From positions 1 to 64,000 of IMG/VR virus record IMGVR_UViG_3300044631_000812: a stretch of 64,000 nucleotides of DNA; one strand, 5' to 3'. The notes beneath the pieces were generated by a model. The model had not been told where the DNA came from. It did not search any database and saw only the letters and a list, made by a program, of their open reading frames with translations. This document shows, piece by piece, positions 52-59,488 of the stretch. This DNA is from a virus. A program made the translations under genes and the position numbers. The stretch's first letter is position 1; every line of letters starts with the position of its first letter.

Positions 52-3000
52 ATGGAGTTTCAAAGAACATTTCTTGCCGGTAGGATGAACAAAGATCTCG
101 ACGAGAGATTAGTACCGGACGGTGAATACCGTGATGCGGTTAACGTTACTATTGATACATCTGAGGGGTCAAATATTGGTGCCGTTCAGAACGCTCTTGG
201 TAACACCATAACTACCAACATAACTACCATACTGTCTAAATACCAAGTGGCTGCCCCATTAAACGCTGTGACTATAGGTGCAATATCAGTTGAAGCTGAA
301 AACCTATTATATTGGTTTGTAAAAGCTGACAACTTTGAGGGTATATTTGAGTACAACCAAGTTACTAACACATCATTGTTGGTATTAGGTACTACAACTA
401 ATCAACTTGGATTTGATAAAAACCACCTCATCACTGGTGTTAACTATGTGACTGATGGTAATGGCGGAGGTCTTCTTATTTGGAATGACAACTTAAATCC
501 ACCTAGAAAGATTAATATTAGCAGGTGTAAAGAATACAGTGTTAATGATCCTAGGATTAATAATGACATTAACTTGATTGTTGCACCCCCATTAAACTCA
601 CCTTTCATATCATTAAATACCATATCAACACCAAACTTAGAGCCTAACAATATTGAGGATAAGTTTGTATACTTTAGTTATCGATATAAGTATGTGGACA
701 ATGAGTACTCCTCAATGTCTCCATTTTCTGCGGTTTCTTTTAATCCTAAAACTTTATTAATAGATACTGAAACTGGGGAGAATAAAGGAATGCTCAACAA
801 GTTCAATCAAGTTGAGGTTGTGTTTGAAACAGGCAACGAATTTGTAAAAGAAATACAACTATTAGTATGGGAATCAAGAACGCTAAATGTAAAAATAGTT
901 GAGACCCTAAATAAAGAAGAGATAGGCATACTAAGCAACTCTACCTATAGCTTTAAATTTATGAATAACAAGACCTATGCAGCCTTACCAGCTGATCAGG
1001 TGACTAGATTGTTCGATAATGTGCCATTAAAAGCATTAGCTCAAGATATTATAGGTAATCGATTGATTATGGGTAACTATACTCAGTTTAGAGATCTTAT
1101 AGACAACTCTGGAGACTTTATAGATATTAACTACACTGTTGGCTACATATCTGACACAGTTACTTCAGAACCTAAACAGACATGGAGAAGTGATCGCGAC
1201 TACGAGATTGGCATTGCATACTTGGATGATTACGGTCGAATGACTACCGTGCTTACGACTACAACTGATAACACAAGTAACAATCTATCTAACTCAGTAT
1301 ACATACCGCCAACCAATTCAAGCACAGCTAACTCATTACTTGTCAACATAAAAAACAAGGCACCTGAGTGGGCAACCGGATATCGATTCTTTGTAAAGCA
1401 ATCTAAGACTGAATATTATAATATATTTCCAGTAACTTTTTTGGTATCTGGTTCTTACCGATATTTCTTGATTAATGAAGCAGACAGAGATAAGATTAAA
1501 GTAAATGGATATATTATATTCAAGTCTTCTGGTAATGGTCCTACACATTCAAACAAAAGATTTAAAGTTCTTGAGCTTGATCAAAAGGCTGCAAATGCTA
1601 TTAATAGTGGTTCATTAGAAGGTCTTTACTTTAAGATTAAAGCTGATGCATCTGATACATTTATTAGCGCAACAAGTCAAGTGGTATTTAACTTTAACGG
1701 ATCAGGTAGAGGTCCTAAATTTATTGGATCTCCACTTGCAACAATTGATCCAGTTACGCAGAGAACAGCAAACGCAAGTATATCAAAAACATTAGCATAC
1801 TATCACTTTAGTGGTGATAATACTATACAAAATACTGGTCCTTCTGTCAATCTAATCAACATAAATTGTCAGACAGATGCAAGGTTAACTGTGCTAATAA
1901 CTCCAAATAACAAATATAAAACAACTCTAACATTAGATCAATCGTCTTTCAGTGCTGAGGCAAATATCACTACATCACCTGTATCCATTACTATTGCAAC
2001 CAACCAAACAGCAAACCTGGTATTTCAACCTGGTACATACAACCCTGGAGATAGATTTGTATTTAACATAAGAGGAGTAGGAAGTAGAGCTGGAACACCT
2101 TCAGCTAGAAACAACCCTAATTTCGGATTACCTGTAAACATAAATTCATTTAACAGAGATGAGTATGGAGGTGTTGCATTGTTGCAGGAACCTACAGGTA
2201 GCGTTATATATCCAGGTGCACAAATAGTAATAGATATTGAATATGACTGTGCTCCTGGAGATGGGTATAGAGCTAAAACTAATTCATTTACATCTACTAA
2301 TTACTATACTAATTTAGAAGAGTGGTTTTATGAGTCAGGTGCTTATTCAAGCTTTGTTCAATGGAAAGATGAAAACTCAACAAATAACATAGGATCAAAA
2401 GGAGTTACATTTAGAAACGGAATATCTTACAATAATGTTGGTTCCCAACTTTCAAATACCATAGTTCAAGTTCCTTTTTCTACACCTGGATCTAAATTAT
2501 ATATGTGTATACAAGGTTTTGGAGATGGATCTTTCAACCAAAAGAACGAAATAAAGGCATCTTTAAAAGTTACACAGACTCCATTAAATAATAAAATAAC
2601 TGCCGAGACAGTTCCGGATAATGATGATGTAGATATATTCTACGAGATGAGCAGAACATATCCTGTTGATATTAATGGTAATCACATGGTTTTATGGAAT
2701 TATGATAGATGTGTTGCTATTGGATCTGCTTTAAGATTAATTCAAGACGATAAAACACAACCTCATTATTTTAAAGATGGGCAGCAAGTATATATTACAG
2801 CAGCAAACATACCTGCAGCATTTTACACAATTACTGGTATTCCAGATAGATATACAATACAAATAAACTACGCAACAGCAACAGCAACCATCCCTGGTGG
2901 TGTTTCTGATAACATATTAGATAAAAACCAATCAGGAGTACTCAATCAAGCTGTTATTCAATTAAACAATATCGGCAACAAGAATTCAGACTATAACGCT

Positions 3001-3969
3001 TACTGCTATGGAAATGGTGTTGAGTCTAACCGAATATTAGATGGATTCAATGAGCCATGGCTGAAGTACAGCCTGCGCGCTAGTGGTGTTATTGAGGATT
3101 ATGAAGAGCAAATAAAAGACACGTCGGTTACATATAGCGGCTTATATCGTTGGGATTCATCTATTAATAGATTGAATGAGTTCAACCTATCTCTTGCTAA
3201 CTTCAAAAACCTAGACAAGAACTTTGGCACCGTCCAAAAACTTTACGCTAGAACAACTGACCTAGTGGTATTACACCAAGACAAAATAACTTCAGTTCTG
3301 TATGGCAAAAACTTATTGGTTGATGCCGTTGGTGGTGGATCAGTAGCCTCTGTGCCTGAAGTGCTTGGAACACAGATTGCCTTACCTTACGAGTTTGGTA
3401 TATCATCAAATCCAGAGAGTTTTGCTGTATGGAGTGATCGAATGTACTTCTCTGATGCTAAGAGAGGTGTTGTTCTTCAAATGCAAGGCGATCAAGTAAT
3501 GCAGATATCTCGAATGGGTATGTCTGATTATTTTAGAGATTTAATGGCAAGCACGCCAAATATGGCTAAGCTTGGTGCATACGACCCATACAATCATAAT
3601 TACGTGATTGCGTCTACAGATAGAAGAAATGTACCTTGCGATATACAGATTAATCCATATGCTGATTCTTTCCCTTACAATACAGCTGGAAGTCTTCAAT
3701 ATTTATTTGCACTATCAGGTACAACAAGCTGGTCAATTACATTAATTAATAACGGATTTGGTACTAACTGGATTGAACTTCCTCCTTACTGTCAGACAGG
3801 TGTAGGTGCTCAAGATATATACGCAAGAATTCAAAATAACATCACTCTATCAAACAGAAGTGTTATTGTTAGAGTTGCATACTGTAACACATACGTAGAC
3901 TACACATTAACTCAAGGTAGAACTAGAAAAATAGACTTTAATATTTTAACATTAGGCACAGATGGGTAA
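52..3969 (+). CDS. Large virion protein, probable tail stabilisation/tail hub protein
   Basis: This 1305-aa protein begins with a conserved-looking block (residues about 3-45, with FLAGRMNKDLDERLVPDGEY and then GAVQNALGN). I associate this block with the stabilisation or tail-hub proteins of podovirus-like Bacteroidetes phages (P22 gp10-type role), and that assignment is from memory. No membrane segment or catalytic motif is visible. The C-terminal third (for example VWSDRMYFSDAKRGVVLQM, about residues 1125-1143) looks like a beta-propeller or blade surface. The middle (nt about 1550-2990) is clearly more AT-rich than both flanks, as if a module had been swapped in. The gene overlaps the next by 8 bp, consistent with a tail operon. 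It could also be another tail-tube or adaptor protein. Confidence 0.5.
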   Translation: MEFQRTFLAGRMNKDLDERLVPDGEYRDAVNVTIDTSEGSNIGAVQNALGNTITTNITTILSKYQVAAPLNAVTIGAISVEAENLLYWFVKADNFEGIFEYNQVTNTSLLVLGTTTNQLGFDKNHLITGVNYVTDGNGGGLLIWNDNLNPPRKINISRCKEYSVNDPRINNDINLIVAPPLNSPFISLNTISTPNLEPNNIEDKFVYFSYRYKYVDNEYSSMSPFSAVSFNPKTLLIDTETGENKGMLNKFNQVEVVFETGNEFVKEIQLLVWESRTLNVKIVETLNKEEIGILSNSTYSFKFMNNKTYAALPADQVTRLFDNVPLKALAQDIIGNRLIMGNYTQFRDLIDNSGDFIDINYTVGYISDTVTSEPKQTWRSDRDYEIGIAYLDDYGRMTTVLTTTTDNTSNNLSNSVYIPPTNSSTANSLLVNIKNKAPEWATGYRFFVKQSKTEYYNIFPVTFLVSGSYRYFLINEADRDKIKVNGYIIFKSSGNGPTHSNKRFKVLELDQKAANAINSGSLEGLYFKIKADASDTFISATSQVVFNFNGSGRGPKFIGSPLATIDPVTQRTANASISKTLAYYHFSGDNTIQNTGPSVNLININCQTDARLTVLITPNNKYKTTLTLDQSSFSAEANITTSPVSITIATNQTANLVFQPGTYNPGDRFVFNIRGVGSRAGTPSARNNPNFGLPVNINSFNRDEYGGVALLQEPTGSVIYPGAQIVIDIEYDCAPGDGYRAKTNSFTSTNYYTNLEEWFYESGAYSSFVQWKDENSTNNIGSKGVTFRNGISYNNVGSQLSNTIVQVPFSTPGSKLYMCIQGFGDGSFNQKNEIKASLKVTQTPLNNKITAETVPDNDDVDIFYEMSRTYPVDINGNHMVLWNYDRCVAIGSALRLIQDDKTQPHYFKDGQQVYITAANIPAAFYTITGIPDRYTIQINYATATATIPGGVSDNILDKNQSGVLNQAVIQLNNIGNKNSDYNAYCYGNGVESNRILDGFNEPWLKYSLRASGVIEDYEEQIKDTSVTYSGLYRWDSSINRLNEFNLSLANFKNLDKNFGTVQKLYARTTDLVVLHQDKITSVLYGKNLLVDAVGGGSVASVPEVLGTQIALPYEFGISSNPESFAVWSDRMYFSDAKRGVVLQMQGDQVMQISRMGMSDYFRDLMASTPNMAKLGAYDPYNHNYVIASTDRRNVPCDIQINPYADSFPYNTAGSLQYLFALSGTTSWSITLINNGFGTNWIELPPYCQTGVGAQDIYARIQNNITLSNRSVIVRVAYCNTYVDYTLTQGRTRKIDFNILTLGTDG

Positions 3970-10905: not shown

Positions 10906-13900
10906 ATGCCAAACGATAATCTTAAGAAGTACTATTCCTATTTAAAGTCAAACGGCGCTGATGTAGCTCCCACATATGATTCATTTGTATCTACATTAAA
11001 TAATGAAGAAAATGCTAAGAAATACTACTCTTATTTACAGAGTAATGGATTCGACACGCCACCTTCATACGACCAATTTGCCAACACTTTGGGTATAAAA
11101 AAAAAAGATCCTACGGCATCTGGATCAGGAACGTCTTCATCGGGAAGATCATCCAACACAACAACAAAGCCTACGGCATCTTCATATTCAAAAGGTGAAA
11201 TCTTTACTGGTTATCCAGGTAAGGAAGAGAAGCCATATCAATTTAAGGATGGTAAGTGGTATGAGGAGGCTCCTGTAAAAGTATATGGTCAGGAGGCTAA
11301 GTATGTGCAGATTCAAGATCCAAATAGAATTGGTAATCTCAATAAGCAGTTTAAAAAGGACGCATCTTTATCCCAACAAGAGGAGGTTTTTAATAACTAC
11401 GATGACGAAAAATCTGACAACCAATACCGTATAAAAGACGGACAATGGCAGCGAATGACTCCTGGCAGTAAGTGGCATACCATTCAGAATGAGGGATCAA
11501 TCAATGCGTTAAATAATCGATACGGCAAAAGCGTAAGCACTAGAGTTTCAACCACAACTACAGTAAAGCCTGTAAAGTTTGATGACATTAACTCAGACTT
11601 TATGGCAAAAACAGAAGAGGATGCTATAAAAAAACTAACTGAAAAATATGGCAAGCTTGGCTTTGAGTTCTCTGAAGAGGGTTTATTTTTAAAGGATCAA
11701 ATTAGAGTAAAAACTAAAGATGGTAGTAAGGATCAGGTATTTGAGTTTGACGAAAAAAATCCTGAGCAAGCACGTGAATTACGTGCATTCTTAGAAGCAA
11801 ATGCCTCTAAGCCGTATAGTGAAAGTTTTGATAAGGCGTTATCTGCTCTTAATAAAGGAGATGTAAGGCCAAGTTATCAGATTGGTGGTAGTACACTTGC
11901 TTTTGGAACTGATCAAGATGGATTAGAAAAAGAGTCTGCTGCTATTAGAGGAAAGAACTTGCTATCAAGCGATTTTCAGTCACAGTTTAAAAAGCTACCA
12001 TTTGATGAACAAAAAGAACTTATTCAAAAGCAAATTGCTAGTGGATCTCTTCCTTCAAGTGATGTTCAATCTTTTTACAAAAGTGAAGCATATAAAGACT
12101 ATAAGAAAAAGAAAATAGCTGGAGATCAACAAGTTAAAGCAAAGCAAGACCAAATATTTGATGACTATCAGTACGCCTTAGCTACTAAAGATCCGGCCAA
12201 AATAAAGGAAGCGAAGGCTAAAATTAATGCATACTATACCGATGATATTATACAGGATAATGTTAAGACGTATAACATGAAGCTTAATGATCTTGAACAG
12301 TCACAAAAAAAGATACTACAAGATAGGAAAGTATACGATGATGAGGTAAATAGATTTAATGAGCTAGCCCAAAGCGGCAATATGACTCAAGAACAATATG
12401 ATGCTCAAAAAAAAATACTAGATAGTCAAGCTGAATCATTAGAAACAAGAGCTCAGAACTTTGTGATGCAAAGAAAAGAAATTCAAGCATCACAAAATAA
12501 GCTAAACTTGGTGGCTGGTAAGTACGTAGCTGCTAAAGAAAAGGAAGGTAACTTTGGTGGATTTGTAGTTAACAAGGTATTGAGTGGTATATCAATGACA
12601 TTCGCTGAACCATTCGCTGGATTAGAGGCTACTCAAAATAGATATGATTACTTATCTCCAGAAGAAAAAGCTTACTACAAGTCAATTAAATATAACGGAA
12701 AGAATCTTACTAAAGATCAGATTGAAAATCTACTTGACAATCAGGCTGTATTAAAGGCAAAGAACCAAGCGAAAGAAAATATTATTGATGTACTTGGATC
12801 TGAAGGTACCACTCTTGAGTACATGAAGTCTGGAGATAGAGGGTTTATTACACAAGCAATAGGCGGTGTTCTTGAATCTCTTCCTGCAATGGCAACTGGT
12901 GTAGCTGGAAAAGCAGCTGGTTTTGTAGGTCTTGCGGCACAAGCTTATAGTGGGATTGAAGAGGAGATGCTTAGCGACCCTGACTTCCAGTACACTTCTG
13001 CAGGTGATCGTGCTATTATTGCGATACCATATGCAGCAGGAATGGGCGTACTTGAGAGTGTAGGTTTACAAAACTTAGTTAAGGGAGACTCATTCTTAGG
13101 TAAAGTTATGATGGATGTTGCTCTTAAGTCAGCTAAGAAATTAGGAGCTAATGCAACTAAAGAAGCACTTGAAAGAGTTGCAGCCAAAGAGGTTGAAAGT
13201 CTTTTAGCTAAGGGGTTAATTCGTGTAACACAGGCAGGCGTTGCTGAATTTGAAACCGGATTTACGCAAGCATTGGTATTAGACCAAGGATTAAAAAATG
13301 TTTACAACTACATTCAACAAAGCGGCCTAACTGAAGAGCAAAAGAAAAATCTAACTCAAGGTGAGTACTTTGATACAGCCGATGGGTTTAAAGAATTAGC
13401 ATCCCAAACATTTGAGGATGGTGTTGCTGAAATGATTGGCGGTGTTGTTATGGGATCTGTAGGAACTCTATTTCAAGCTGTAACAAAGGGTAATATTTCT
13501 TTGTACAATGATGATGACGTTAAGTTCTTAAAAGATGTTGTCGCAGATAGCAACTTTAAGAAACTATACGTAGCATCTATGAAGACGCAGATGCTAGATG
13601 GCAAAATCACTAAGTCAAAAGCGCAGCAGAACTTAGACAACTTAAATGAGATTGAGGCTGCATTTGATATGATGCCAGATGGTTTGTCTACAGCAGATAT
13701 GAACAGATCGCTTTCTTTGATTACAGAGAGAGCTCAACTAACAAAAGAAAAAGCAGGGAAAGACCCTAACCTTGTTGCACCATTAGAGGCGCGCATCAAG
13801 GCCATAAATGAAGAACTAACACAAATTGGAGAAAATGCCGTTCAAAAGCAAACAACAGGTGAAGTATCTGTACAGCCAGGAACCAAAGGTGGCAGAGAAG

Positions 13901-16900
13901 TGGAGGAAAGAAAACCCGAAACAGGACTTAAAGAAACTACCCAAAAAGGTAAAGAAGAAGTAGATCAGTACATTGCTGATATGGGTGCTGAAGCCCGTAT
14001 TGGAAATACCATCAATCCGGTTATGGAAAAGATGGCTAATACTGAGTACATCAACGACAATGATATTGATAACGCCATTGAGGCAATTTTTAATGAAGTC
14101 GAGAGTTTAGATAAGTCAGACTACAGTGCAGAGACAAAAGCTGCATTGTCTGAGAAGCTACTAAACATCGCTGAAAAATTAGATAACTATGAATTTAGAA
14201 CAAAGACTGAAACTGTCGCAACTACCAAAGCAGGCGCAGCTACAACTACTAGAAGAACTTCTGAAGCGGTCCAAAAAATCAGAGCCGAAAAATACTTCGA
14301 TGGAGTCCAAGCCACAGTCAATGGACAAGAAGTAACTCTTAAGGATAATAAAGGACGAGTAGAGGCTCAGATGCCAAACGGTGAGGTGGTTGTGTTAGAC
14401 ACACCTACCATGGAGATTGCCGAGGATGGATTTGAGTTTGATGACAATGGCGCACTTCAGGCTGTCACAGTAACCGATAGACTTGGCAATACAGCTAAAC
14501 TTACTGGTGATCAGGCACTTGACTTTGCTATCCGTGATCGTGAGAACAAGCTTGGTGTTGTTGAGCAGGCTGAGTTTGATACTGTATACCAAGAGGTAGA
14601 GAAGAAGTATATCAAGGAGACGCCGGCACCTCAAGTAGCAGCTAAAAAACAAGCCGCTGTTGAAGAACAGCAGCCTGTAGTTGAAGAAGAAGGCCAACCA
14701 ATTGCAGAACCTAACGAATCCAATCGCTTTACCGAGCGAAATGCCAAGGTTATGGCCGTCAAGTTTCCTAGTAAAAAAGGAATTGTAAGGGCAGCTCTGA
14801 ACATAATCAAAGCCTTGCCTGGTGTAAAAATTTACTTGCATGAGGACTCTAATCAGTATGCTCAAGAAGTGAGTGCTAGAGTTAAAGAATCAATAAAAAT
14901 AAAAAAAGATCTTGATGAAGCAGGTTCTTACATTGATGGTGAGATCCATATTGACATGTCAAAGGCTGATTTAGTTACGTTACTACATGAGGCATTCCAT
15001 CATGCATTTTTGACACTTGGTGTTAAGAACGGAATGTTTATTGATCTAGCAAAAGGTCTTCGTTCATTAATAAAAAATAAAGAAGCACTTGACTATTTAG
15101 ATGAATTTATTGCAAGCTACTCAGAAGAGACAGCAGAATTACAAGCAGAAGAATTTGCTGTAGAGTTAGGAGCTATACTTGCTAACAATCGAGAAGAGCT
15201 TACAACTACAAAGCTTACTCAGTTCAAGGCATTGATCAACCGAATAGCAAAGAAAATTGGCCTAGGAATGGTATTTTCTTCAGCAGCAAATAGCAAAGAA
15301 GCGGCTGACTTTATTAATGCTATTACTCGTGGATTAACTACTGGTGATATCGTTGAAGGTAAATTCAAGCCAACTAAGACAGGAAAAGCTAAAAGGCAAG
15401 CAGTAACTATTATGGAGGGAAGGGAATCCATGAAGAAGTTTGGATTAACTCCTGGTAAAAATGTTACAAGAAAAATTGGAGAAGCTCTTGAGGCTAGACA
15501 AAGAGCAAAATATGGAACAATAGCTCAAAAAGATAATTCTCCTGAAGCTAGAAAAAAAATATCAAACTGGATGGTTGATGAAGTTAAATACTTTGTTCAA
15601 TTAATGGGTGATAAAAGCGGCAAAGGATGGTATGGTGAGCTATATCAGAATTCATTAGATGCTATGGCTAAGGTTTTCCCTGAAATGAAAACTGATCAGA
15701 ATGCTAGAGATTTATTTACAATGCTTGTAGCAATCACATCTGATGGCCAGAAAGTTATGAGTAATTTTAGATTAGCTGCTGCTGCCTACGACTATTATAA
15801 GAAAAACGGCGTAATGCCGAATACTTTACCTGGGCAACGTGTTGCTTCTTTTGAGGCAAATCTCAAACGAATAAACGAATTACTTGTTGAATATAACGGA
15901 GATATAGCAACTATCAAAGAAAAATTGATGGAAGTTAAATCTATTCAAGAAATTAATCAAGAAAGAAAAAAAGAAGGATTAGAACCTCTTTCTACTAATT
16001 GGCCTGTTAGCTTTAAGGCTCCATTTGCAGCATCTGTATTTGGTCCAAAATTAGGAATGTTTTATTCCAATCTATCAGGTAATGAATCGTATCCAACACT
16101 TGATAGATGGTGGTCTAGAACTTTTAATAGATATAGAGGCACATTAATTCCTGGATTAAAGTCAGGATTTAGTGCAAAAGGAGAGGCTATTGGACTTGAT
16201 AGATTTAAACAACTGCTTGGAAATCCGGGGATGAGCAATGAAGAAGCTCTTTTAGCAGCAAAATCTTATAGGGACTCTTATGCTGCTAAGGGATATAAAT
16301 CAGGAACTGATGTTGAAAAAGCGGCTAACACTATATATAAGACAGCATTTGAGAACTTAAATGATGCCCCATTTACTAAAAATGATCGTCAATTTATGTA
16401 TGATACAATATCTGATGCTGTAAATAAATTAAACAAGCAGGGATATGACTTAAGTATTGCTGACGTTCAGGCTATACTTTGGTATTTTGAAAAGAATCTC
16501 TACAAAACGTTAGGTGTTCAAGCAAAAATAGAAGGTATAAGTTATGAAGATGCAGCTAATTACACATACGATAAATGGAAAGAATCTGGAAACAAGTTTG
16601 ACTATAAGATTAACGAATCAGAGGAAGGTCAAGCTGTAGAAGATGCTGATGAGGATATACAGGAAGAAATAATTCAGCGAAAAAAACAATTAAAAATAAA
16701 AGAAAATAACAAAAAACTCCCTAACTTAGCGCAAAATGAAAAAGGAAACATACAATCCGAACGAACCGGAGACGGAAGAACAGCACGGCCTGCAATCAGC
16801 AAAAATGCGCCTCTCGAAGGTGCTCCAACAATCCAAGGGGCAACCGGACCAGACCCAGAACTTGTATCAGTTGCTGAAAAATATGCAGATGAAAACAATA

Positions 16901-19900
16901 TTGATCTCAAAAGACAAGGAGAGTACGTCGAATTAGACGAAGAAAGAGCTAAGAGATTAGCCGATGCTTACGAGCAGATGGCTGACGACCCTCAAAATCC
17001 AAAAGTCAAAGATGCATATGCTGAATTAATAAAACAAACTAAAGCTCAATACCAAGCATTGGTAGATGCGGGCTATAAGTTTTGGTTTGTTGATTTTAAT
17101 AATCCTGAGAATATTGATTACATATCATCTCCGTATAACGCCATGCGTGATTTGCGCCAAAACAAACAGATGGGCGTTTTCCCAACAGAACAAGGTTTTG
17201 GCTCAAATGAAAATATAGATGTATCTAAAAATCCTTTATTAGAGGACACAGGTATCATGTGGCCATCAGGTGGATTAAATGGAAAAATGAAAATTGTTAC
17301 AGCAAATGATTTATTTAGAGCTGTACATGACGCATTCGGGCATGGTCTTGAGGGGGCTGGATTTAGAGCAAGAGGCGAAGAGAATGCATGGCAAGCTCAT
17401 TCAAGATTGTACACAGGAAGTGCTATAGGTGCTATGACGAGTGAAACAAGAGGTCAAAACTCTTGGGTAAACTACGGACCTAAAGGAGAGCAAAATAGAA
17501 CTGCGAGTGGTGAAGATACTATTTTTGCTGATCAAAAAGTAGGTCTTATGCCTAAATGGACATGGACTGAAGGTCGCGCAGGTGATATGGAAGCCCCTAA
17601 ACGAAAGAAGCAATTGAAGCCTAAAATTTTAGGCGTGAAGCCTACAGTGGTGATTGTGAACGATGAGCAGAAGGCCTTGGTTGATCAGATCAAGCTTGAA
17701 GTCAGAGCACAACGCGAGCAGAAGAAGGCATACAAGCAAGTGCTTGCAGACATCTCAGCTAGAGTCACAGCGCTTAAGAGTAAAGGTAATATATCTGTCA
17801 AGCAGTTTGACGCCATCATGAAGAACTTAAAGCGCTTAAACTTTGATAACGAAACAAAGGTCCAGGCGTTTATTGACTACGTGTCAAGAGCCCTTGCTAA
17901 TGCAGACTACGTAGAGAAAGTAGCTAAAGCTCAGTCACTTAATAAAAGAATCAAGGCTAGTCTAAAAGGCACAGCTAATCCATTTGCTGTATTGGCTAAG
18001 ATGTTCACGACATTGGACTCACGATGGGTACAGAACATTGACGACCATATTGCAGTGGCTCAGATGATCTTAGATGGCGTTAAGCCTAGCGCAGCTAGAC
18101 GTGGTGTCCTTACACTTAAAGAGGAACCAGATCTACAAGTTATTGCTGAATATATTGACGCTGAGCAGACGCTTCAAACGCAGATGTTGCTTGATAGGCT
18201 TAAGTTTAGATATGAAATGATTACAGGTAATCCATCAGACAAGTTAACAGCTGATGAGATGATTACTCTTCTAGATGCATTAAAGCCAAATGAAGACCAA
18301 ACTGATAAGATAAAAGAACAGATAGATCAAAAGTTTGCTGAGTATGCATCTATGTTATCTGAAGAAGATCCACAAGTTATTGTTGATGCTGTAAATGTAG
18401 ATACAGACATGATAAGTTGGAGAGAGTCTGTTAAGATACTAGATGCACTTGACACATACTTTACTAATGGGTCATTAGCTGGTATTGACTCGCTTATGGG
18501 TTCATATCAAGGTATTGTTAATGTGAAGAGATTTAAGGATAAATCTAATCCAATGACAATAGCTCTTTCTAAAAATTTGGCAAAACTTAAATTTGAAAAC
18601 TTTACTGGGTTCACAAGAATACTAGAAAGAAAATTCAGAAGTCTAGAAAAATCTCTTGCTTATGAAAAAGCGAGTGGAATTAATGATATTGTTACTGGTG
18701 TTAATAGAGCTGACTTTGAAGCCGCTAAGAAACAAAAGGAATATATTAAAAAGTTTGAAAAGGTAAAAGATTTCAACTCAAATGAGAATATATATGAGAG
18801 AGGTGTAATTGCAGATCTTATTAGAACAAACGCAGGTATTGATCAGGATGCTGAATTTGATCGATTAGTAAACATATTGATAGACTCTAAAGACATGTTG
18901 CTTGCAAGCCAAGATCAAACTAAAGTTGAGATGGGTAGGTTGTGTGACAAAGTTTTCAAAAAACTTGGTCTTTATGAGGATGGAATTACAATTGACGACG
19001 TACTATCTAAGGCTACTAAAACAAATGTAGATGCGGTAGAATTTGTTGTAGATATGTTTGCAGATAAGTATGACTTACTTAGCGACACAGCGCTAGGTGT
19101 GTATAACGTTATGCTTGGTCAAGACATAAACTACACACCAAAGATATACATGAATATTAGAAATGAGAAGTCTGTTGACTCTGATCCGTTGTCAGGAAAA
19201 GACGCGTTCAGTCTTGGAGCTTATTCAAACTTGTATGCAGGTTTTAATAAAAATGAGGCAGGAGTTTTAATGCCTATTACAAGACCAAAGGACTTAAAAG
19301 ATGCTGGAAAATATATTGATTTGAACTTTGACAACAATATGTTTAGATCTTATCGCTTGGCATTAACTGATGCATACACTGCAAAATCAATACGTCAGTT
19401 AAATTCATTCTTCAACACAAAAGAAAATGAAGACATATTAGCATCCGAAAAAGACTTTGATGTAATTAAGGCAGCACTAAGTGACTACATTAATACAGCA
19501 AAGGGGAAGAACTTTATTGGTAAGATAACTTCACAAGAGGTAGATAAGTTTATAAACCTAATCAGTACGTTTGGATCTGTAAGAGCGCTCGTTGGTGTTG
19601 GACAGGCATTTAGCCAGTTTGCTTCTGGTATGTCAAACACAATAATTAATGCAGGTGAGCATATTAGACCATCCGACTTTACAAAAAAGGCATTTGATTT
19701 CATGAACAGATCAGGACAGCCTATTGCAAACGTAGGTGAGAATGACATTCTAATATCACTAGCCAACTTTGATAAGTCTATTGAGAGAGCGACTGTTGGT
19801 AAAAATATGGCAGAAATAGGACTTGATAAGTTTGCCAAGTTTAACTCAAAGGCATTCCAAATATTTGTATCAAACCCAGATGCTGCCGCTAGACGATTAG

Positions 19901-21123
19901 CTTGGATGGCATACTACAGAAAATATGTAATTAAAAACAAACTTGGTCCTATAGACTTTAATGCAGAGCCAAATGCTGAAGCTGCTGCTTATGCTCAAGG
20001 GATGGTAGATAGGTCAATGGATGCTACTGATGCTAGAATTCGTGGTGACATATATAGAACTCAAAACGTATGGGCAAAAGCTGTTAGAAGTATGTTGTTC
20101 CCATTCTCTTCATTTGGTATGAACCAAAAGACTAGAATGTGGGGAGACCTTACTAAGTTGGTTACATTCAATGCTGACTTTGATACAGCTAGATCATTGG
20201 CGTCAATTGGAGCTGAAATGTTCATATACAACTTGATTAGATACCAAATGGCGCGTCTAATATTGTATGCAGCAATGAATATGCTTGGATATGACGATGA
20301 GGAGCAAGATGAGCTAATTAAAGAGCTCAAGAAAAATATGATGTCATCATCATGGAGTAAGGCTGTTGTCGACACATTCTCTCCACTAGCTCTATTTGAT
20401 AATTGGACTCTTGAATTAGCAAACTGGTTAATGGCTGAAACAGGCGTTGGTGAGCCTAATCAAAAAGAAGTTGATGAATTTATTAAAGAGGAGAACGACA
20501 TTAGAAAAATTAAAAGACTAGACCCTCTAACAAAAGAACAGGAAAAGCGTAAAAGAGATGAATTCATGACTGAGAATTCAATGCAGTTCTACATATCCGA
20601 CGAAGCTAATTGGGGTGTACTCGGAATACAATTTGAAAAAGGAGCGGAGTCATATGAAATATACAAGGCATTAACAACCGGTAAGTATACAGATGAGTAT
20701 GGTCGAGATGTTTACTTTGATAGCGAAGCTCGTGAAAAGTTAAAGTGGGTAGCTTTATTAAAGACTGGTGGACAAATAGTACCTTTAAGAGAAATCGATC
20801 AGGTAGCTAATAAGTCACTCAAGTTCCTTAAAAAAGGTAACACAATGTCTGAGAAAAAGTACGACATGATAACCGAGATAAAAAGAAAATTTGGGAAAGT
20901 AGATCCGGTGCTAGAGAAACTAGCTGAGAAAAAGAATAAGATTACCACCATTGAAAATGAAATCGCTTGGATAAATAAACATGGTGGTTTAAAAGGACCT
21001 AAAGAAAAGATGGAGTACGCAAAACTACTAGATTTAATCTCAACACCATCGAAAGATATGTTAGAGAAAATTCAAAGAGGTGGTACTGCTCAGGAAATAT
21101 TTGATCAAGAGTTAAAGAAGTAA
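10906..21123 (+). CDS. Large polyvalent protein (3405 aa) with a zincin-like motif
   Basis: This giant protein is probably carried in the virion and ejected with the DNA. Two tandem 31-residue repeats open it (KKYYSYL...YDSF at 7-31 and KKYYSYL...YDQF at 38-62). Long Lys/Glu/Gln helices follow. A hydrophobic stretch lies near residues 655-800. An HEAFHH zincin-type HExxH motif is at 1361-1365, with a possible third ligand in EEFAVELG near 1415. A region with LDRWWSRTFNRY lies near 1730. A second His-rich module carries HDAFGHG at 2141-2147. The C-terminal helical part carries MLFPFSSFGMNQ near 3060. Different sections differ in base composition, which suggests assembly from modules. The end overlaps the convergent (-) gene by 19 bp. 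Exact domain functions are inferred. Confidence 0.75.
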   Translation: MPNDNLKKYYSYLKSNGADVAPTYDSFVSTLNNEENAKKYYSYLQSNGFDTPPSYDQFANTLGIKKKDPTASGSGTSSSGRSSNTTTKPTASSYSKGEIFTGYPGKEEKPYQFKDGKWYEEAPVKVYGQEAKYVQIQDPNRIGNLNKQFKKDASLSQQEEVFNNYDDEKSDNQYRIKDGQWQRMTPGSKWHTIQNEGSINALNNRYGKSVSTRVSTTTTVKPVKFDDINSDFMAKTEEDAIKKLTEKYGKLGFEFSEEGLFLKDQIRVKTKDGSKDQVFEFDEKNPEQARELRAFLEANASKPYSESFDKALSALNKGDVRPSYQIGGSTLAFGTDQDGLEKESAAIRGKNLLSSDFQSQFKKLPFDEQKELIQKQIASGSLPSSDVQSFYKSEAYKDYKKKKIAGDQQVKAKQDQIFDDYQYALATKDPAKIKEAKAKINAYYTDDIIQDNVKTYNMKLNDLEQSQKKILQDRKVYDDEVNRFNELAQSGNMTQEQYDAQKKILDSQAESLETRAQNFVMQRKEIQASQNKLNLVAGKYVAAKEKEGNFGGFVVNKVLSGISMTFAEPFAGLEATQNRYDYLSPEEKAYYKSIKYNGKNLTKDQIENLLDNQAVLKAKNQAKENIIDVLGSEGTTLEYMKSGDRGFITQAIGGVLESLPAMATGVAGKAAGFVGLAAQAYSGIEEEMLSDPDFQYTSAGDRAIIAIPYAAGMGVLESVGLQNLVKGDSFLGKVMMDVALKSAKKLGANATKEALERVAAKEVESLLAKGLIRVTQAGVAEFETGFTQALVLDQGLKNVYNYIQQSGLTEEQKKNLTQGEYFDTADGFKELASQTFEDGVAEMIGGVVMGSVGTLFQAVTKGNISLYNDDDVKFLKDVVADSNFKKLYVASMKTQMLDGKITKSKAQQNLDNLNEIEAAFDMMPDGLSTADMNRSLSLITERAQLTKEKAGKDPNLVAPLEARIKAINEELTQIGENAVQKQTTGEVSVQPGTKGGREVEERKPETGLKETTQKGKEEVDQYIADMGAEARIGNTINPVMEKMANTEYINDNDIDNAIEAIFNEVESLDKSDYSAETKAALSEKLLNIAEKLDNYEFRTKTETVATTKAGAATTTRRTSEAVQKIRAEKYFDGVQATVNGQEVTLKDNKGRVEAQMPNGEVVVLDTPTMEIAEDGFEFDDNGALQAVTVTDRLGNTAKLTGDQALDFAIRDRENKLGVVEQAEFDTVYQEVEKKYIKETPAPQVAAKKQAAVEEQQPVVEEEGQPIAEPNESNRFTERNAKVMAVKFPSKKGIVRAALNIIKALPGVKIYLHEDSNQYAQEVSARVKESIKIKKDLDEAGSYIDGEIHIDMSKADLVTLLHEAFHHAFLTLGVKNGMFIDLAKGLRSLIKNKEALDYLDEFIASYSEETAELQAEEFAVELGAILANNREELTTTKLTQFKALINRIAKKIGLGMVFSSAANSKEAADFINAITRGLTTGDIVEGKFKPTKTGKAKRQAVTIMEGRESMKKFGLTPGKNVTRKIGEALEARQRAKYGTIAQKDNSPEARKKISNWMVDEVKYFVQLMGDKSGKGWYGELYQNSLDAMAKVFPEMKTDQNARDLFTMLVAITSDGQKVMSNFRLAAAAYDYYKKNGVMPNTLPGQRVASFEANLKRINELLVEYNGDIATIKEKLMEVKSIQEINQERKKEGLEPLSTNWPVSFKAPFAASVFGPKLGMFYSNLSGNESYPTLDRWWSRTFNRYRGTLIPGLKSGFSAKGEAIGLDRFKQLLGNPGMSNEEALLAAKSYRDSYAAKGYKSGTDVEKAANTIYKTAFENLNDAPFTKNDRQFMYDTISDAVNKLNKQGYDLSIADVQAILWYFEKNLYKTLGVQAKIEGISYEDAANYTYDKWKESGNKFDYKINESEEGQAVEDADEDIQEEIIQRKKQLKIKENNKKLPNLAQNEKGNIQSERTGDGRTARPAISKNAPLEGAPTIQGATGPDPELVSVAEKYADENNIDLKRQGEYVELDEERAKRLADAYEQMADDPQNPKVKDAYAELIKQTKAQYQALVDAGYKFWFVDFNNPENIDYISSPYNAMRDLRQNKQMGVFPTEQGFGSNENIDVSKNPLLEDTGIMWPSGGLNGKMKIVTANDLFRAVHDAFGHGLEGAGFRARGEENAWQAHSRLYTGSAIGAMTSETRGQNSWVNYGPKGEQNRTASGEDTIFADQKVGLMPKWTWTEGRAGDMEAPKRKKQLKPKILGVKPTVVIVNDEQKALVDQIKLEVRAQREQKKAYKQVLADISARVTALKSKGNISVKQFDAIMKNLKRLNFDNETKVQAFIDYVSRALANADYVEKVAKAQSLNKRIKASLKGTANPFAVLAKMFTTLDSRWVQNIDDHIAVAQMILDGVKPSAARRGVLTLKEEPDLQVIAEYIDAEQTLQTQMLLDRLKFRYEMITGNPSDKLTADEMITLLDALKPNEDQTDKIKEQIDQKFAEYASMLSEEDPQVIVDAVNVDTDMISWRESVKILDALDTYFTNGSLAGIDSLMGSYQGIVNVKRFKDKSNPMTIALSKNLAKLKFENFTGFTRILERKFRSLEKSLAYEKASGINDIVTGVNRADFEAAKKQKEYIKKFEKVKDFNSNENIYERGVIADLIRTNAGIDQDAEFDRLVNILIDSKDMLLASQDQTKVEMGRLCDKVFKKLGLYEDGITIDDVLSKATKTNVDAVEFVVDMFADKYDLLSDTALGVYNVMLGQDINYTPKIYMNIRNEKSVDSDPLSGKDAFSLGAYSNLYAGFNKNEAGVLMPITRPKDLKDAGKYIDLNFDNNMFRSYRLALTDAYTAKSIRQLNSFFNTKENEDILASEKDFDVIKAALSDYINTAKGKNFIGKITSQEVDKFINLISTFGSVRALVGVGQAFSQFASGMSNTIINAGEHIRPSDFTKKAFDFMNRSGQPIANVGENDILISLANFDKSIERATVGKNMAEIGLDKFAKFNSKAFQIFVSNPDAAARRLAWMAYYRKYVIKNKLGPIDFNAEPNAEAAAYAQGMVDRSMDATDARIRGDIYRTQNVWAKAVRSMLFPFSSFGMNQKTRMWGDLTKLVTFNADFDTARSLASIGAEMFIYNLIRYQMARLILYAAMNMLGYDDEEQDELIKELKKNMMSSSWSKAVVDTFSPLALFDNWTLELANWLMAETGVGEPNQKEVDEFIKEENDIRKIKRLDPLTKEQEKRKRDEFMTENSMQFYISDEANWGVLGIQFEKGAESYEIYKALTTGKYTDEYGRDVYFDSEAREKLKWVALLKTGGQIVPLREIDQVANKSLKFLKKGNTMSEKKYDMITEIKRKFGKVDPVLEKLAEKKNKITTIENEIAWINKHGGLKGPKEKMEYAKLLDLISTPSKDMLEKIQRGGTAQEIFDQELKK

Positions 21124-41283: not shown

Positions 41284-42852
41284 ATGGTAGTAAAACATGT
41301 ACATTTAGGCGATGAAGGTCGCCAAAAGCTCATTAAAGGCATTAAAACGATCGCTGGAGCAGTAAAAAGCACACTCGGTGCGCGAGGACGGACAGTCCTA
41401 ATTGAATCAGAGCATCACGTTGGTGGCATTACAGTAACAAAGGACGGTGTGACGGTCGCTAAGTCGATCAACCTCTATGACCCGGTTGAGAACTTAGCCG
41501 TCATGATGATGCGACAGGCTGCTGAGAAGACGGCTACTGTTGCTGGTGATGGGACAACGACCAGTATTGTCATCGCTGAGGCTATTGTGGATGCAGCCAC
41601 AGACATACTGTCTGAGGATAAAAACGTAACCGAGGTCATCCGTGAGATCAATAGCATTACAACAAATGTTGTAACGCACTTGACCAAACGAGCCAAAAAA
41701 CTCTCAGGCAAGAAGCTAAAAGACGTTGCGTCAATAAGTGCCAACAATGACACCACTATTGGTGGTATGATCGCTGACGCGTTCAGTGAGGTCAAGATGG
41801 TATCTGTTGAGAACAGTAAGGACCACAACACATATGTTGAGGTGATCAAGGGGATTAAGGCTGACCGAGGTTGGACTAGTCGCCACTTCATCACTGACTA
41901 CAAGCGTCAGGAGGCCATCCTAGAGAACCCATACGTCTTAATCACTGACCAAGAGATTAACAACCTACTCAACATTGAGAAGGTCCTACAGCATGTTGTA
42001 GCGCAAAATAAGTCACTACTCATCATTGGTGAGATGACACCTGCTGCACTTAACACCCTTAATATAAACGTCGCTCAAGGCAAGATCAAGGCTTGCCATA
42101 TCATGCCGCCAAGCTTTGGCTACCGTCAGAAAGACCTGCTTGAAGACCTAGCGATCGTATTGGACGGCACATACTTTAGTGAGGACACTGGTGATGACCT
42201 ATCTCTTATTGACGTGGCACATCTTGGTCGTTGCTCTAAGGTGATCGTTGGTAAGGACAATACGATCTTTATGCCCTATGCTAGCTCTCAAGATAGCATA
42301 GACGCCCGAATTGCCGACATCAACGAGACCATATTCGAAGGCATAACAAAAGAAGAGCTTGACAACCGTAAAGAGCGAGCGGCCAACCTATCGGGTGGTG
42401 TTGCTGTGATACACGTTGGAGCGCTCAGTGACATTGAGCAGAAGGAGAAGCGCGACCGCATCGACGACGCTGTATGCGCTGTTGAGGCTGCATTAGAGGA
42501 GGGAATCCTTCCTGGTGGTGGTGTTGCTTTGTATGAGTATGCGATTACACACCTACGCGGTAAGATTGGCGCTGCTGAGCAAATTATGTTCAGAGCCATA
42601 ACATCTCCAATGTGGCAAATACTTGTGAACGCTGGCAAAGACGCTCAAGAGATCATGGACGGCATCCTACCGTTCCCTAACGAGGGCTACGACGTCAAAG
42701 GAGAGCAGTACGGTGACATGATCAAGCTTGGCATCATTGACCCGGCTAAAGTCACTAAGAACGCTTTATTGAACGCTGTGTCGGTAGCTACGACGATCAT
42801 GAGCACAAACGCAATCATTACAAATATCAGAGCAGATGAAAGTATTAAATAA
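41284..42852 (+). CDS. groEL: Phage chaperonin GroEL (Hsp60)
   Basis: The 522-aa protein has the standard chaperonin features: GARGRTVLIE (33-41), TKDGVTVAK (52-60), the ATP site GDGTTT (88-93) and the C-terminal equatorial signature AALEEGILPGGG. The Asp of GroEL position 52 is Glu here (residue 41), while the Asp equivalent to D398 (DDAVCAVEAA) is kept. The GGM-rich tail of bacterial GroEL is absent. It probably folds phage structural proteins. The gene is the first of an operon with groES (17-bp overlap) and has its own operator-like promoter. Confidence 0.95.
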   Translation: MVVKHVHLGDEGRQKLIKGIKTIAGAVKSTLGARGRTVLIESEHHVGGITVTKDGVTVAKSINLYDPVENLAVMMMRQAAEKTATVAGDGTTTSIVIAEAIVDAATDILSEDKNVTEVIREINSITTNVVTHLTKRAKKLSGKKLKDVASISANNDTTIGGMIADAFSEVKMVSVENSKDHNTYVEVIKGIKADRGWTSRHFITDYKRQEAILENPYVLITDQEINNLLNIEKVLQHVVAQNKSLLIIGEMTPAALNTLNINVAQGKIKACHIMPPSFGYRQKDLLEDLAIVLDGTYFSEDTGDDLSLIDVAHLGRCSKVIVGKDNTIFMPYASSQDSIDARIADINETIFEGITKEELDNRKERAANLSGGVAVIHVGALSDIEQKEKRDRIDDAVCAVEAALEEGILPGGGVALYEYAITHLRGKIGAAEQIMFRAITSPMWQILVNAGKDAQEIMDGILPFPNEGYDVKGEQYGDMIKLGIIDPAKVTKNALLNAVSVATTIMSTNAIITNIRADESIK

Positions 42853-52983: not shown

Positions 52984-53237
52984 TAGAGGCGGCTAAGCAA
53001 GCAATCGATGAGTTGATCAAGGTGCTAAAGTCACCTATCATCACTCACGCTGAGGACGATATATCGGCCGACAAGATGAAGAACGCAGCGTCAGCTAAGC
53101 GTTTGGCATTTGAGGATGCAATGTATATGCTCAATAAGATTGAGGAGGAGGAAAACAAGGCAGCAGAGGGTCCAATTGTAGAGGTTACACTCGGCAAATC
53201 AGGATTCGCTGAAGGAAGAGCAAGACATGGAAAATAA
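52962..53237 (+). CDS. Hypothetical protein upstream of terminase, possible small terminase
   Basis: The 91-aa helical protein (SADKMKNAASAKRLAFEDAM) overlaps both neighbours and directly precedes the large terminase gene. Small terminase subunits usually sit here and are helical, but no HTH is evident in the N-terminus. The call is positional only. Confidence 0.4.
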   Translation: MSKKGEIVEAAKQAIDELIKVLKSPIITHAEDDISADKMKNAASAKRLAFEDAMYMLNKIEEEENKAAEGPIVEVTLGKSGFAEGRARHGK

Positions 53238-56200
53238 GCTGTACTCCATAGTAAACGACTACATTAATAAGACTGCTCTTAATACTAAGAACAATAAGAA
53301 GTCGTGGGATTATGGGTACAACAAAGAGTACGACCTCATCGTCATATCTAAGGATGGAACCATTGGCGAGATCTATGAGATAAATGGATTGAAGGTTGCT
53401 TTGCCTTCTACTCCTAAAGGAGTAGAGAACAGAGGTAACAGATGGCAGCCAGTAGAGTATCCATCTGAACTACAGAAAATTAAGTCAATATTTGACTGGA
53501 ACCGAAGAGATAACGCGTTCAAGTCTAAGTATGTGGATATGATTGAAGATGAATTTGAGAGACGAGAGCAAGGCTTTTGGTTCATTAACAATGGAACACC
53601 GACATACATCACCGGAACGCACTACATGTATCTTCAGTGGACCAAGATTGATATTGGTCTTCCTGACTTCCGTGAGTCCAACCGAATATTCTACATATTT
53701 TGGGAGGCGTGTAAAGCAGACAGTCGGGCGTTTGGTATGTGCTACCTAAAGAACCGTCGTTCAGGATTCTCATTCATGTCGTCTGCAGAGACTTCAAACA
53801 CAGGTACAATTGTCAGAGATGCCAGGCTTGGTATTCTATCCAAAACAGGATCTGATGCCAAGAAGATGTTTACCGACAAGGTTGTACCTATCGTAAGAAA
53901 TTACCCATTCTTTTTCAAGCCGATCCAGGACGGTATGGACAACCCGAAGACGGAGTTGGCCTTCCGTGTCCCTGCGAGTAAGATTACTCGTAAGAATATG
54001 GATGAGGAGCGCGATGATGATATAGATGGGTTAGATACTACCATTGACTGGAAAAACACAGCAGACAACAGCTATGACGGTGAGAAACTACTTCTGCTTG
54101 TACATGATGAGTGCTACGCACCAAACACAAAAATATTAATGTCTGATTTCACCTTTAAAGAGATAAAGGATATAAATATTGGAGATAATGTAATAGTAGA
54201 TGGTGGAATTATAAAAACAGTTGTAAAAAGAACGCAAGGAGTAACAGATAGATATTTAGTCAAACAGCCATATGGAGAGGATTATGTTGTAACAAAAAAC
54301 CATAGACTTGTGCTTAACGAGTATAAAAAAGGTGAGGTTATAATGAATCCAGAAGAGTATATTAATAGCTCTAAATTTAGAAAGCAACATCTAACTAGAA
54401 TTGCATCTACTGGTATTGAATCACAAGATATATTTGAAGGTATTCCTCCATTTCTATTAGGGCTTTGGCTTGGTGATGGAAGGAGTAATTCTATGACTAT
54501 TTTAGTAAATAAATATGAAGAGCCTGAACTTCTTGATTATTTAGGAAAGCTTTCTACCGTAATGAATATTCAATTTGAACTAATAAAAAGTACTTCTAAT
54601 AAAATCATTGAATTTAGGTTTAAAGGCATTAATTCTGAATTAAAAAAAATAGGTGTTTATAAAAATAAGCACATACCAATGCAATACATGCAGTCGTCTA
54701 TAGAGACTAGACTTCAGTTATTAGCAGGTATAATAGAAACAGATGGATATTCTGACAAGAATAAAAACATCATATCATTAGGCATGAGCAGGAAAGACCT
54801 TATAGAACAAATAAGGTTCTTAGCTCTATCATGCGGACTTAGTTGTAGCAATGTTAAAGAAAAGGATACAAATTTCAATACAAAATCATACAACATAAGC
54901 ATATCAGGCGATTTATCAATTATACCTTTAATCACAAAAAAGAAATCATTTGAAGGTTATGTACCTAAAACTAGAGGCAGACGAAATAAAGTGTCTGTAG
55001 AGTATTTAGATAAAGGTGAGTATATCGGCATACAGGTAGATGCAGATAATGACAATGAAAGAAAATTAATACTAGGAGACTTTACCGTCAGTATGAATAG
55101 CGGTAAGTGGGAAAAGCCAGAGAACATCTTAAATAACTGGCGAGTCACTAAGACTTGTTTGCGTCTTGGTAGCCGTATCATTGGTAAGTGTATGATGGGA
55201 TCAACATCAAACGCGCTTAGTAAAGGTGGTGAGAACTTTAAGAAGTTGTTCTACGATAGTGATCCAACCAAGCGATCTGCCAATGGTCAGACCAAGTCGG
55301 GGCTTTACTCTTTGTTTATTCCAATGGAATGGAACATGGAGGGCTTTATTGACGAGTATGGATGGCCAGTATTTGATGATCCAAAGAAACCTGTGATGGG
55401 TATCGATGGTGAGCAGATTACTATGGGTGTTATCACCTATTGGAATAATGAGGTAGCTGCAATGAAGTCAGACTCAGACGCACTCAACGAATACTACCGT
55501 CAGTTCCCTAGAACAGAATCGCATGCATTTAGAGATGAGAGTAAGTCATCTTTATTTAACTTAACGAAGATATACCAACAGATTGACTACAACGATGCGA
55601 TGATTAAAGATCGCGTCCTAACAACTGGTTACTTTCATTGGAAGAACGGCGAGAAAGATAGCGAGGTTATTTGGACTCCTGATCCAAAGGGGCGTTTTGT
55701 GGTATCATGGATTCCTGACGCTAAGATGCGTAATAACGTAATTAAGAAGGACGGCAAATTTCACCCTGGTAATAAAGATATCGGTGTGTTTGGTTGTGAC
55801 CCTTATGACATATCAGGTGTAGTTGGGGGTGGTGGGTCTGCAGGTGCACTCCACGGCATAACCAACTTTCACATGGAGAACGCGCCAACCAATCACTTCT
55901 TTTTGGAATATATTGCTCGTCCTCAGACTGCTGAGATATTCTTTGAGGATGTATTGATGGCCTGTTTTTTCTATGGAATGCCTATACTTGTAGAGAATAA
56001 CAAGCAGCGACTATTGTATCACTTTAAGAACAGAGGGTACCGTCCATTCTCAATGAACAGACCTGACAAGCATACGTCTAAACTATCAAAGACAGAGCTT
56101 GAGTTAGGTGGTATACCAAACTCTAGTGAGGACATAAAGCACGCTCATGCCAATAGCATCAACACTTATATTGAAGAGTACGTCGGAATCGACGCAGAAG

Positions 56201-56433
56201 GTAATTATCGAGAGAAAGATAGTATGGGTGATATGTATTTTACCAGAACGTTAAATGACTGGGCAAGATTTGACATCAACAATCGAACAAAACACGATGC
56301 CTCTATTAGCTCAGGATTGGCATTAATGGCATCTAGAAGACACCTATTTATACCTGTTAAGCAGGAATCTAAAATAAGTGTTAAATTTGTAAGATATAAG
56401 AATACTGGCATAAGAAGCGAAATTATCGAATAA
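53227..56433 (+). CDS. terL: Large terminase subunit with in-frame intein
   Basis: The 1068-aa product becomes about 739 aa after removal of residues 296-624. The extein shows an ATPase part (CYLKNRRSGFSFMSSAE as atypical Walker A region; LLLVHDE / SGKWEKPEN as Walker B across the intein site) and motif III-like SRIIGKCMMGSTSN. A nuclease half follows (VFGCDPYDISG and LVENNKQRLLYHFKNRGYRP). It powers DNA packaging and cuts the concatemer. The stop overlaps the portal ATG (TAATG). Splicing is required for function because the insert divides the ATPase active site. Confidence 0.9.
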   Translation: MENKLYSIVNDYINKTALNTKNNKKSWDYGYNKEYDLIVISKDGTIGEIYEINGLKVALPSTPKGVENRGNRWQPVEYPSELQKIKSIFDWNRRDNAFKSKYVDMIEDEFERREQGFWFINNGTPTYITGTHYMYLQWTKIDIGLPDFRESNRIFYIFWEACKADSRAFGMCYLKNRRSGFSFMSSAETSNTGTIVRDARLGILSKTGSDAKKMFTDKVVPIVRNYPFFFKPIQDGMDNPKTELAFRVPASKITRKNMDEERDDDIDGLDTTIDWKNTADNSYDGEKLLLLVHDECYAPNTKILMSDFTFKEIKDINIGDNVIVDGGIIKTVVKRTQGVTDRYLVKQPYGEDYVVTKNHRLVLNEYKKGEVIMNPEEYINSSKFRKQHLTRIASTGIESQDIFEGIPPFLLGLWLGDGRSNSMTILVNKYEEPELLDYLGKLSTVMNIQFELIKSTSNKIIEFRFKGINSELKKIGVYKNKHIPMQYMQSSIETRLQLLAGIIETDGYSDKNKNIISLGMSRKDLIEQIRFLALSCGLSCSNVKEKDTNFNTKSYNISISGDLSIIPLITKKKSFEGYVPKTRGRRNKVSVEYLDKGEYIGIQVDADNDNERKLILGDFTVSMNSGKWEKPENILNNWRVTKTCLRLGSRIIGKCMMGSTSNALSKGGENFKKLFYDSDPTKRSANGQTKSGLYSLFIPMEWNMEGFIDEYGWPVFDDPKKPVMGIDGEQITMGVITYWNNEVAAMKSDSDALNEYYRQFPRTESHAFRDESKSSLFNLTKIYQQIDYNDAMIKDRVLTTGYFHWKNGEKDSEVIWTPDPKGRFVVSWIPDAKMRNNVIKKDGKFHPGNKDIGVFGCDPYDISGVVGGGGSAGALHGITNFHMENAPTNHFFLEYIARPQTAEIFFEDVLMACFFYGMPILVENNKQRLLYHFKNRGYRPFSMNRPDKHTSKLSKTELELGGIPNSSEDIKHAHANSINTYIEEYVGIDAEGNYREKDSMGDMYFTRTLNDWARFDINNRTKHDASISSGLALMASRRHLFIPVKQESKISVKFVRYKNTGIRSEIIE
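54112..55098 (+). mobile_element. LAGLIDADG intein in the terminase gene (329 aa)
   Basis: It begins at Cys296 (CYAPNTKILM, block A) and has block B VVTKNHRLVL. Two LAGLIDADG motifs follow (LLGLWLGDG, 410-418; LAGIIETDG, 499-507). It ends DFTVSMN at Asn624 with Ser625 as first C-extein residue. The penultimate residue is Met where His is usual. It is AT-rich compared with the terminase parts. Confidence 0.9.
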
Positions 56434-58856: not shown

Positions 58857-59488
58857 TGGCATATATAGAGCATAACTTTTTCCCTTTAAAAGTATTCGTT
58901 AGAAATGAGTACATGTATCAACACCAAAAAGGGCAAGGAGATTTTACACCTGGCGTTATAATGTCGGTAAGATGTATGCCTGGGCAGGCGGCGTTATTCC
59001 AAGTTCTACTAGATAACGGAGTAATGCGTGATAAGTTACCAAGTCATGCCTTACTTACTGAACCAAAGACACCAGATCCAGATCTACCTTTTCACTTCTT
59101 ACAGATATGGAACTGTTTTTCTTATAACTTCACCTTATTACATTTGTCTTATGTATACGATACAAAGGTAGAGGTGTATATGAAAGACCACGAGTTCTAC
59201 CCAGGTAGTTATTATGCCACCATTAACTGGGGAGCTAATGACTTAAATACTGACCTATCGTTAGCAGAGGATGCCTTAGAGCACAAGAGTCATCACATTA
59301 TTCTACTTGACAATGGTCAAATAGCCCTTCAGCCAAACAATCGTATTAAGTGGTCTGAGCCATCATTTGTCACGAAGCCTTTTCCAGAGCGTCCTGATTA
59401 TTTAGTTAATACAGACTACTACAATTGCGAAGGCTTTGATAAGTGGCACACAGAAGACTCTGATCGTATGTTCTACGATAATGAATAA
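58856..59488 (+). CDS. Hypothetical head-cluster protein (210 aa)
   Basis: It starts at the portal stop (TAATG). The N-terminal YIEHNFFPLKVFVRNEYMYQ and the GDFTPGVIMSVRCMPGQAAL segment suggest a beta barrel. A His/Asp/Trp-rich C-terminus follows. It is probably an accessory head or connector protein by position. No family is recognised. Confidence 0.5.
   Translation: MAYIEHNFFPLKVFVRNEYMYQHQKGQGDFTPGVIMSVRCMPGQAALFQVLLDNGVMRDKLPSHALLTEPKTPDPDLPFHFLQIWNCFSYNFTLLHLSYVYDTKVEVYMKDHEFYPGSYYATINWGANDLNTDLSLAEDALEHKSHHIILLDNGQIALQPNNRIKWSEPSFVTKPFPERPDYLVNTDYYNCEGFDKWHTEDSDRMFYDNE

Follow-up and report, generated by a model that had tools for sequence, protein, structure and literature searches.

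A giant polyvalent-type phage protein carrying a zincin-like domain, a predicted HhH DNA-glycosylase-like domain and a widespread candidate metalloenzyme module

We have analysed a 3405-aa protein encoded in a virus DNA window (the whole stretch under analysis, 64000 bases of a 65113-base virus record). It is probably a polyvalent protein that a phage related to Elemovirus packs into its virion, with a conserved N- and C-terminal scaffold that would bear exchangeable cargo and be delivered together with the phage DNA. The module content, the conservation, the cargo exchange and the late-operon position are the computed parts of this explanation. Polyvalent proteins are a known kind, and what is new with respect to the libraries and the open-access literature searched is that one domain is read as HhH DNA-glycosylase-like and that a second one, the HD module, is a metalloenzyme candidate.

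The reading frame is open for 3405 codons, and the two motifs lie where the original prediction had placed them, with HEAFHH starting at residue 1361 (HExxH, 1361-1365) and HDAFGHG at residue 2141 (2141-2147) (Table 1). An HExxH motif arose by chance in 5 of 2000 residue shuffles of the chain. The idea of two His-rich modules stood in so far as 6 of the histidines (1361, 1365, 1366, 2141, 2146, and 2165) fall within the two motif regions, although "His-rich" is a loose term for a chain that has only 12 of them. The expected change of base composition along the gene is real but modest, GC ranging from 0.336 to 0.426 (per 300 codons) and the GC3 variance being reached by only 0.15% of 2000 synonymous-codon shuffles. 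The predicted HhH domain, which lies between both motifs, had not been foreseen. The tandem unit at the N-terminus could possibly be a targeting or packaging tag; besides the window's own copy (L002), it was matched in a single ORF (L019) among those searched. The whole protein gave no meaningful match in Pfam (best E 0.97), and PADLOC models gave zero matches to it and to the HD proteins submitted.

Table 1. Coordinates of the giant gene and its parts in the window
Feature	Residues	Window positions	Strand	Basis
Giant polyvalent-type protein, 3405 aa		10906..21123	+	ORF; final gene of late operon collinear with Elemovirus
Unit of ~30 aa, twice in tandem	1-64	10906..11097	+	Read from translation
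Conserved N-terminal scaffold	~400-1010	12103..13935	+	27-91% identity in giant proteins sharing the scaffold
Zincin-like metallopeptidase, HEAFH 1361-1365 and EE ~50 residues on	1285-1480	14758..15345	+	10-row alignment, predicted model
HhH DNA-glycosylase-like domain with K1715 and D1733, distantly related to DUF7178	~1538-1899	15517..16602	+	Predicted fold, alignments
HD module (HDAFGHG 2141-2147), predicted metalloenzyme	1975-2235	16828..17610	+	Relatives, model, conservation
Helical C-terminal scaffold	2245-3399	17638..21102	+	Identity in giant relatives

The genes around the giant ORF are collinear with those of Flavobacterium phage Elemovirus elemoA (48% identity for TerL and 47% for the portal), with in-order counterparts of gp30, gp29, gp28, gp27, gp25, and gp24 when the record is taken as circularly permuted. 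The giant gene occupies the slot of Elemovirus gp21 (NC_055852), a gene of similar length class annotated as "structural protein", and because of this place in a collinear operon it very probably encodes a virion protein. Its ejection into the host would be expected by analogy, given the operon place and the precedent of polyvalent proteins such as the virion RNA polymerase of phage N4 (PMC5512222). No Elemovirus proteomics was found in the open-access literature. Other genes in the window include the TerL gene (53227-56433), with a Hint and LAGLIDADG homing endonuclease region at residues ~296-561 that is likely an intein, a phage GroEL-like chaperonin gene (41284-42852; PHROG 5725, E 2.9e-125) and, between the portal and the next structural gene, a gene (58856-59488) that matches PHROG 3704, labelled ferredoxin.

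Judged from its alignment, the HExxH region is very probably a zincin: all 10 rows, Elemovirus included, have H-E-x-x-H and a Glu-Glu pair ~50 residues downstream. The AlphaFold2 model of the zincin together with the HhH domain (pLDDT 81.3) predicts a core in the order helix-strand-helix-strand-strand-helix (HExxH), with the Glu helix later. Its matches in VIA-align were weak and included 1oz9 (Z 5.3, 79 residues aligned), aminopeptidase N (4.4), a fragment of lethal factor (4.3) and IrrE (3.6), all four of which we take to be zincin-like; a sequence-profile search of the PDB with this region gave insignificant matches only. The zincin was found in 18 of the 80 HhH loci described below, in all 18 directly before the HhH domain. 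For the zincins of polyvalent proteins this same core is described by Iyer et al. (2017; PMC5512222), who give autoprocessing, post-injection processing, or host targeting as candidate roles. Cleavage of a host protein by the ejected zincin, acting as an effector as the original prediction suggested, is among the roles proposed there, but we consider it unlikely here, as the zincin adjoins changing cargo and processing fits its constant place before the HhH domain at least as well.

The region that follows the zincin is predicted to adopt an HhH DNA-glycosylase-like fold with an endonuclease III-like Lys/Asp pair. Ranks 1-8 of VIA-align (971 chains) were taken by two DUF2419 queuine-salvage proteins (Z 9.2 and 8.7), phage PUGT, presumably of HhH fold as well (8.0), four AGOG chains (7.3-7.8) and MutY (7.7), followed by a zincin match at Z 5.3 and then by Z 4.8. 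Foldseek with the zincin-HhH model returned no PDB match at E <= 0.001. DUF2419 is structurally similar to DNA glycosylases according to the available text of PMC9406330. The Lys and Asp are invariant in 16 of 16 aligned rows, all 80 HhH loci of a wider scan carry the G-x-K...D motif, and the spacing of 18 between K1715 and D1733 is the same as that of K120 and D138 in eight endonuclease III-type control proteins. By sequence profile, hhalign was not significant against endonuclease III (Prob 0.17%), its alignment nonetheless pairing the Lys and Asp residues, nor against MutY (Prob 0.15%); no PF00730 row was obtained for the region, and PDB profile matches were insignificant. As it lacks a PF00730 or endonuclease III profile match, we describe the domain as one that would work like the glycosylase superfamily and do not file it as a member. 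DUF7178 (PF23802) is matched above the cut-off of 27 bits by some HhH relatives (L067, E 5.6e-15, 56.2 bits), the window region itself remaining below it (E 0.077, 13.3 bits); nothing linking DUF7178 with phage was found in the open-access literature. In IMG/VR, 217 HhH relatives were found and 80 kept, all of them in large ORFs, of which 48 are complete (1008-3864 aa, median 3099) and 32 are cut by contig ends, so that the module absences counted in these loci are upper bounds.

The high rank of PUGT raises another reading, in which the HhH domain, instead of being a glycosylase, would resemble PUGT in transferring an amino acid to a base or nucleotide, and would work on an amino-acid adduct together with the HD module. 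It would agree with the presence of bacterial HD homologues within sulfur-amino-acid gene sets (see below). However, the Lys-Asp spacing fits endonuclease III, and the two domains are separable, HD being found in 23 of the 80 HhH loci, so this transferase is in our opinion also unlikely.

HDAFGHG is no generic His-rich stretch; it is the centre of an extremely conserved and widespread domain of ~255 aa, with 306 relatives among 315 candidate IMG/VR stretches. The middle part of the window protein was matched in 202 of 50,697 phage records, 187 of them from Mycobacterium phages. Sixteen residues (Y2072, N2134, D2135, F2137, R2138, V2140, H2141, D2142, H2146, F2153, G2157, E2158, A2161, E2180, Q2184, and K2211) do not vary in any of the 81 HD rows, both phage and bacterial, and H2165 is kept in 80. 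A separate redundancy removal kept 50 HD rows, and three short, frame-changed or partial sequences (L106, L104, and L097) were left out of one alignment. The invariance of H2141, D2142, H2146, and E2180, like that of the zincin residues, takes both motifs beyond chance. The AlphaFold2 model of the module (pLDDT 92.1, pTM 0.90) can be considered sound because 21 viral models in BFVD match it at E <= 0.001. In it, three predicted helices that follow one another bear H2141/D2142/H2146, E2158/H2165, and E2180/Q2184, and this invariant His/Glu set suggests a one- or two-metal site. PHROG 3170, to which no function is assigned, covers the core of the module (E 2e-11, 60 residues). Pfam and NCBIfam gave no match, the motif letters did not appear in the open-access literature, and in the PDB Foldseek found nothing at E <= 0.001, VIA nothing at Z >= 2 among 996 chains and the sequence profile insignificant matches only, an absence that does not by itself establish a new fold.

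When 14 giants were aligned over their full length, almost all invariant columns were inside the HD module. The C-terminal scaffold is 64-67% identical to that of the window protein in four relatives (L083-L086) and 30% in L087/L088. In a further 13 giants that bear HD its identity is 26-30%, and giants in this last range have HD modules 73-94% identical to the window's. Because HD identity has been kept while the C-terminal scaffold drifted, the module should do something specific. Hundreds of environmental phages place the same unnamed and near-invariant domain in giant proteins with next to nothing else in common; one ORF of 5168 aa (L017, 1694-17197) has two HD modules. Alternatively, the protein could have a structural role alone, inside the virion or in the tail, with domains that are relics without activity. 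This would be consistent with the annotation of Elemovirus gp21, which mentions only a structural protein, but dozens of diverged proteins retain the predicted active-site residues without change, which makes this reading less probable than the two considered above. Least probable of all is a remote relative of the aromatic amino acid hydroxylases, with H2141, H2146, and E2180 binding a single iron. The HDxFGH...E of the module resembles the H[DE]xFGH...E of 12 real phenylalanine hydroxylases compared, but hhalign detects the motif only (Prob 9% and 13%), the PF00351 profile does not match, and the hydroxylase fold is absent among the Foldseek matches listed and from VIA at the threshold given above.

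The proposal that cargo modules have been exchanged between phages was borne out by module presence in relatives, as shown by identity ranks, trees and cargo-slot occupancy. Relatives of the window protein rank in opposite order by HD and by C-terminus: L003 is 94% identical in the former and 30% in the latter, whereas L084 is 43% and 67%. In trees that leave out L083, L085, and L011, the scaffold groups the window protein with L084 and L086 (100/100) and rejects its grouping with L003 (AU p 1.4e-28), while the HD module groups it with L003 (100/100), although here the AU test does not reject the window+L084+L086 grouping (p 0.171). Furthermore, among relatives with HhH domains 85-91% identical, the slot after HhH holds an HD module of 42% (L185 and L186), 38% (L187 and L188) or 33% (L193) identity, or has no HD at all (L184 and L189-L192); in L189-L191 an HD of 43-44% is found before the zincin. 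An in-place swap of HD in L084/L085 was ruled out, as their HD lies before the zincin (L190/L191 are the same contigs). Over the 80 HhH loci, HD is downstream of HhH in 15, upstream in 8 and absent in 57, and the module orders are HhH alone (46), HhH-HD (11), zincin-HhH (11), HD-HhH (5), zincin-HhH-HD (4) and HD-zincin-HhH (3). The exchange therefore concerns cassettes at more than one site.

The HD module also has small bacterial homologues of about 220-280 aa, whose size should make them easy to express and their chemistry directly testable. They are found, counting the query genome, in 2 of 396 genomes across the phylum, in 21 of 150 in the family and in 3 of the 58 genomes of the Paraburkholderia genus group. 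One of these three (L163) is encoded on the chromosome and joins an HExxH region to HD in a single chain. In a first group (B1; Actinobacteria and Paraburkholderia), a SufS-type cysteine desulfurase gene is present in 10 of 11 loci and, among the actinobacterial loci in which an HD gene was called, lies directly downstream of it in 7 of 7, and a homocysteine S-methyltransferase gene occupies this position in both Paraburkholderia loci with a called HD gene, whose HD proteins are identical. These loci (L098-L105, L146, L147, and L161) present the HD-SufS pair together with a Cys/Met PLP enzyme, homocysteine S-methyltransferase, a methyltransferase and adenosylhomocysteinase, and the neighbourhood is probably a sulfur-metabolite gene set. 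In a second group (B2; Micromonosporaceae, L148-L160), the 13 loci contain genes for an N6-methylase (13), a Ser/Thr kinase (10), a UvrD-type helicase (7) and Cas3 (7), families that were assigned by clustering with scanned members; PADLOC matched a PD-T4-6-like kinase and a type I methylase among these neighbours, and type I-E CRISPR genes are also alongside. The "aminotransferase" gp206 of Rhodococcus phage E3, a phage for which no paper was found in the open-access literature, was considered as a further SufS link and dropped, as it has no Pfam or NCBIfam match.

According to the virion-borne polyvalent reading that we favour, the giant protein would be packaged in the virion and ejected with the phage DNA, the zincin would cut the chain and release the cargo, the HhH domain might flip or excise a nucleic-acid base at the start of infection, and the HD module may be a metalloenzyme that acts early on a target in the host or the incoming DNA, most plausibly in counter-defence. 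Were a glycosylase-like domain ejected in this way, it would point to base excision or flipping as one of the first steps in some infections. A bolder version, which we regard as speculative and rather doubtful, is that HD represents a new fold of metalloenzyme, which phages would eject for counter-defence or to modify the host, often beside an ejected base-handling HhH domain, and which bacteria would use in SufS-linked sulfur-metabolite operons and in a Micromonosporaceae defence-like island with a kinase and a type I methylase. If this were true, one catalyst would serve attack, defence and metabolism.

Compared with known systems, the HhH domain is like the glycosylase superfamily (DUF2419, PUGT, AGOG, MutY, and endonuclease III) in predicted fold, Lys/Asp pair and spacing, and differs from it in having no significant sequence-profile match and in being fused inside a giant phage protein. 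The HDxFGH...Glu motif of the HD module resembles that of phenylalanine hydroxylase (PF00351), with no significant profile or fold match. Elemovirus gp21 has the same slot in the collinear late operon, and by BLAST it has only the zincin region in common with the window protein (32% identity over ~220 residues), the rest being without a match. The phage N4 virion RNA polymerase, in the available text of PMC5512222, is likewise a giant virion protein with a zincin, whereas no polymerase was recognised in the window protein by Pfam, PHROGs or PDB sequence searches. In the main text of that paper the words glycosylase, hydroxylase and oxygenase are all absent. The open-access literature yielded one paper on polyvalent proteins together with a DNA glycosylase, and there T4 endonuclease V is mentioned in a separate passage. 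There is also a close likeness to the polyvalent proteins that Iyer et al. (2017) describe from phages and conjugative elements, which include giant multidomain phage chains with a zincin. Domains of that repertoire accompany HD in its relatives, the Pfam companions in 13 HD giants (L017 left out for its length) being ART-PolyVal (7), LPD38 (6), InPase (2) and LPD22 (2), besides DUF7178 (4), while the HD module itself differs in lacking a Pfam name. The polyvalent-type architecture that had been predicted is thus supported, as the window protein combines several distinct domains in one large phage chain with a zincin-like MPTase domain, which is common, though not obligatory, in polyvalent proteins.
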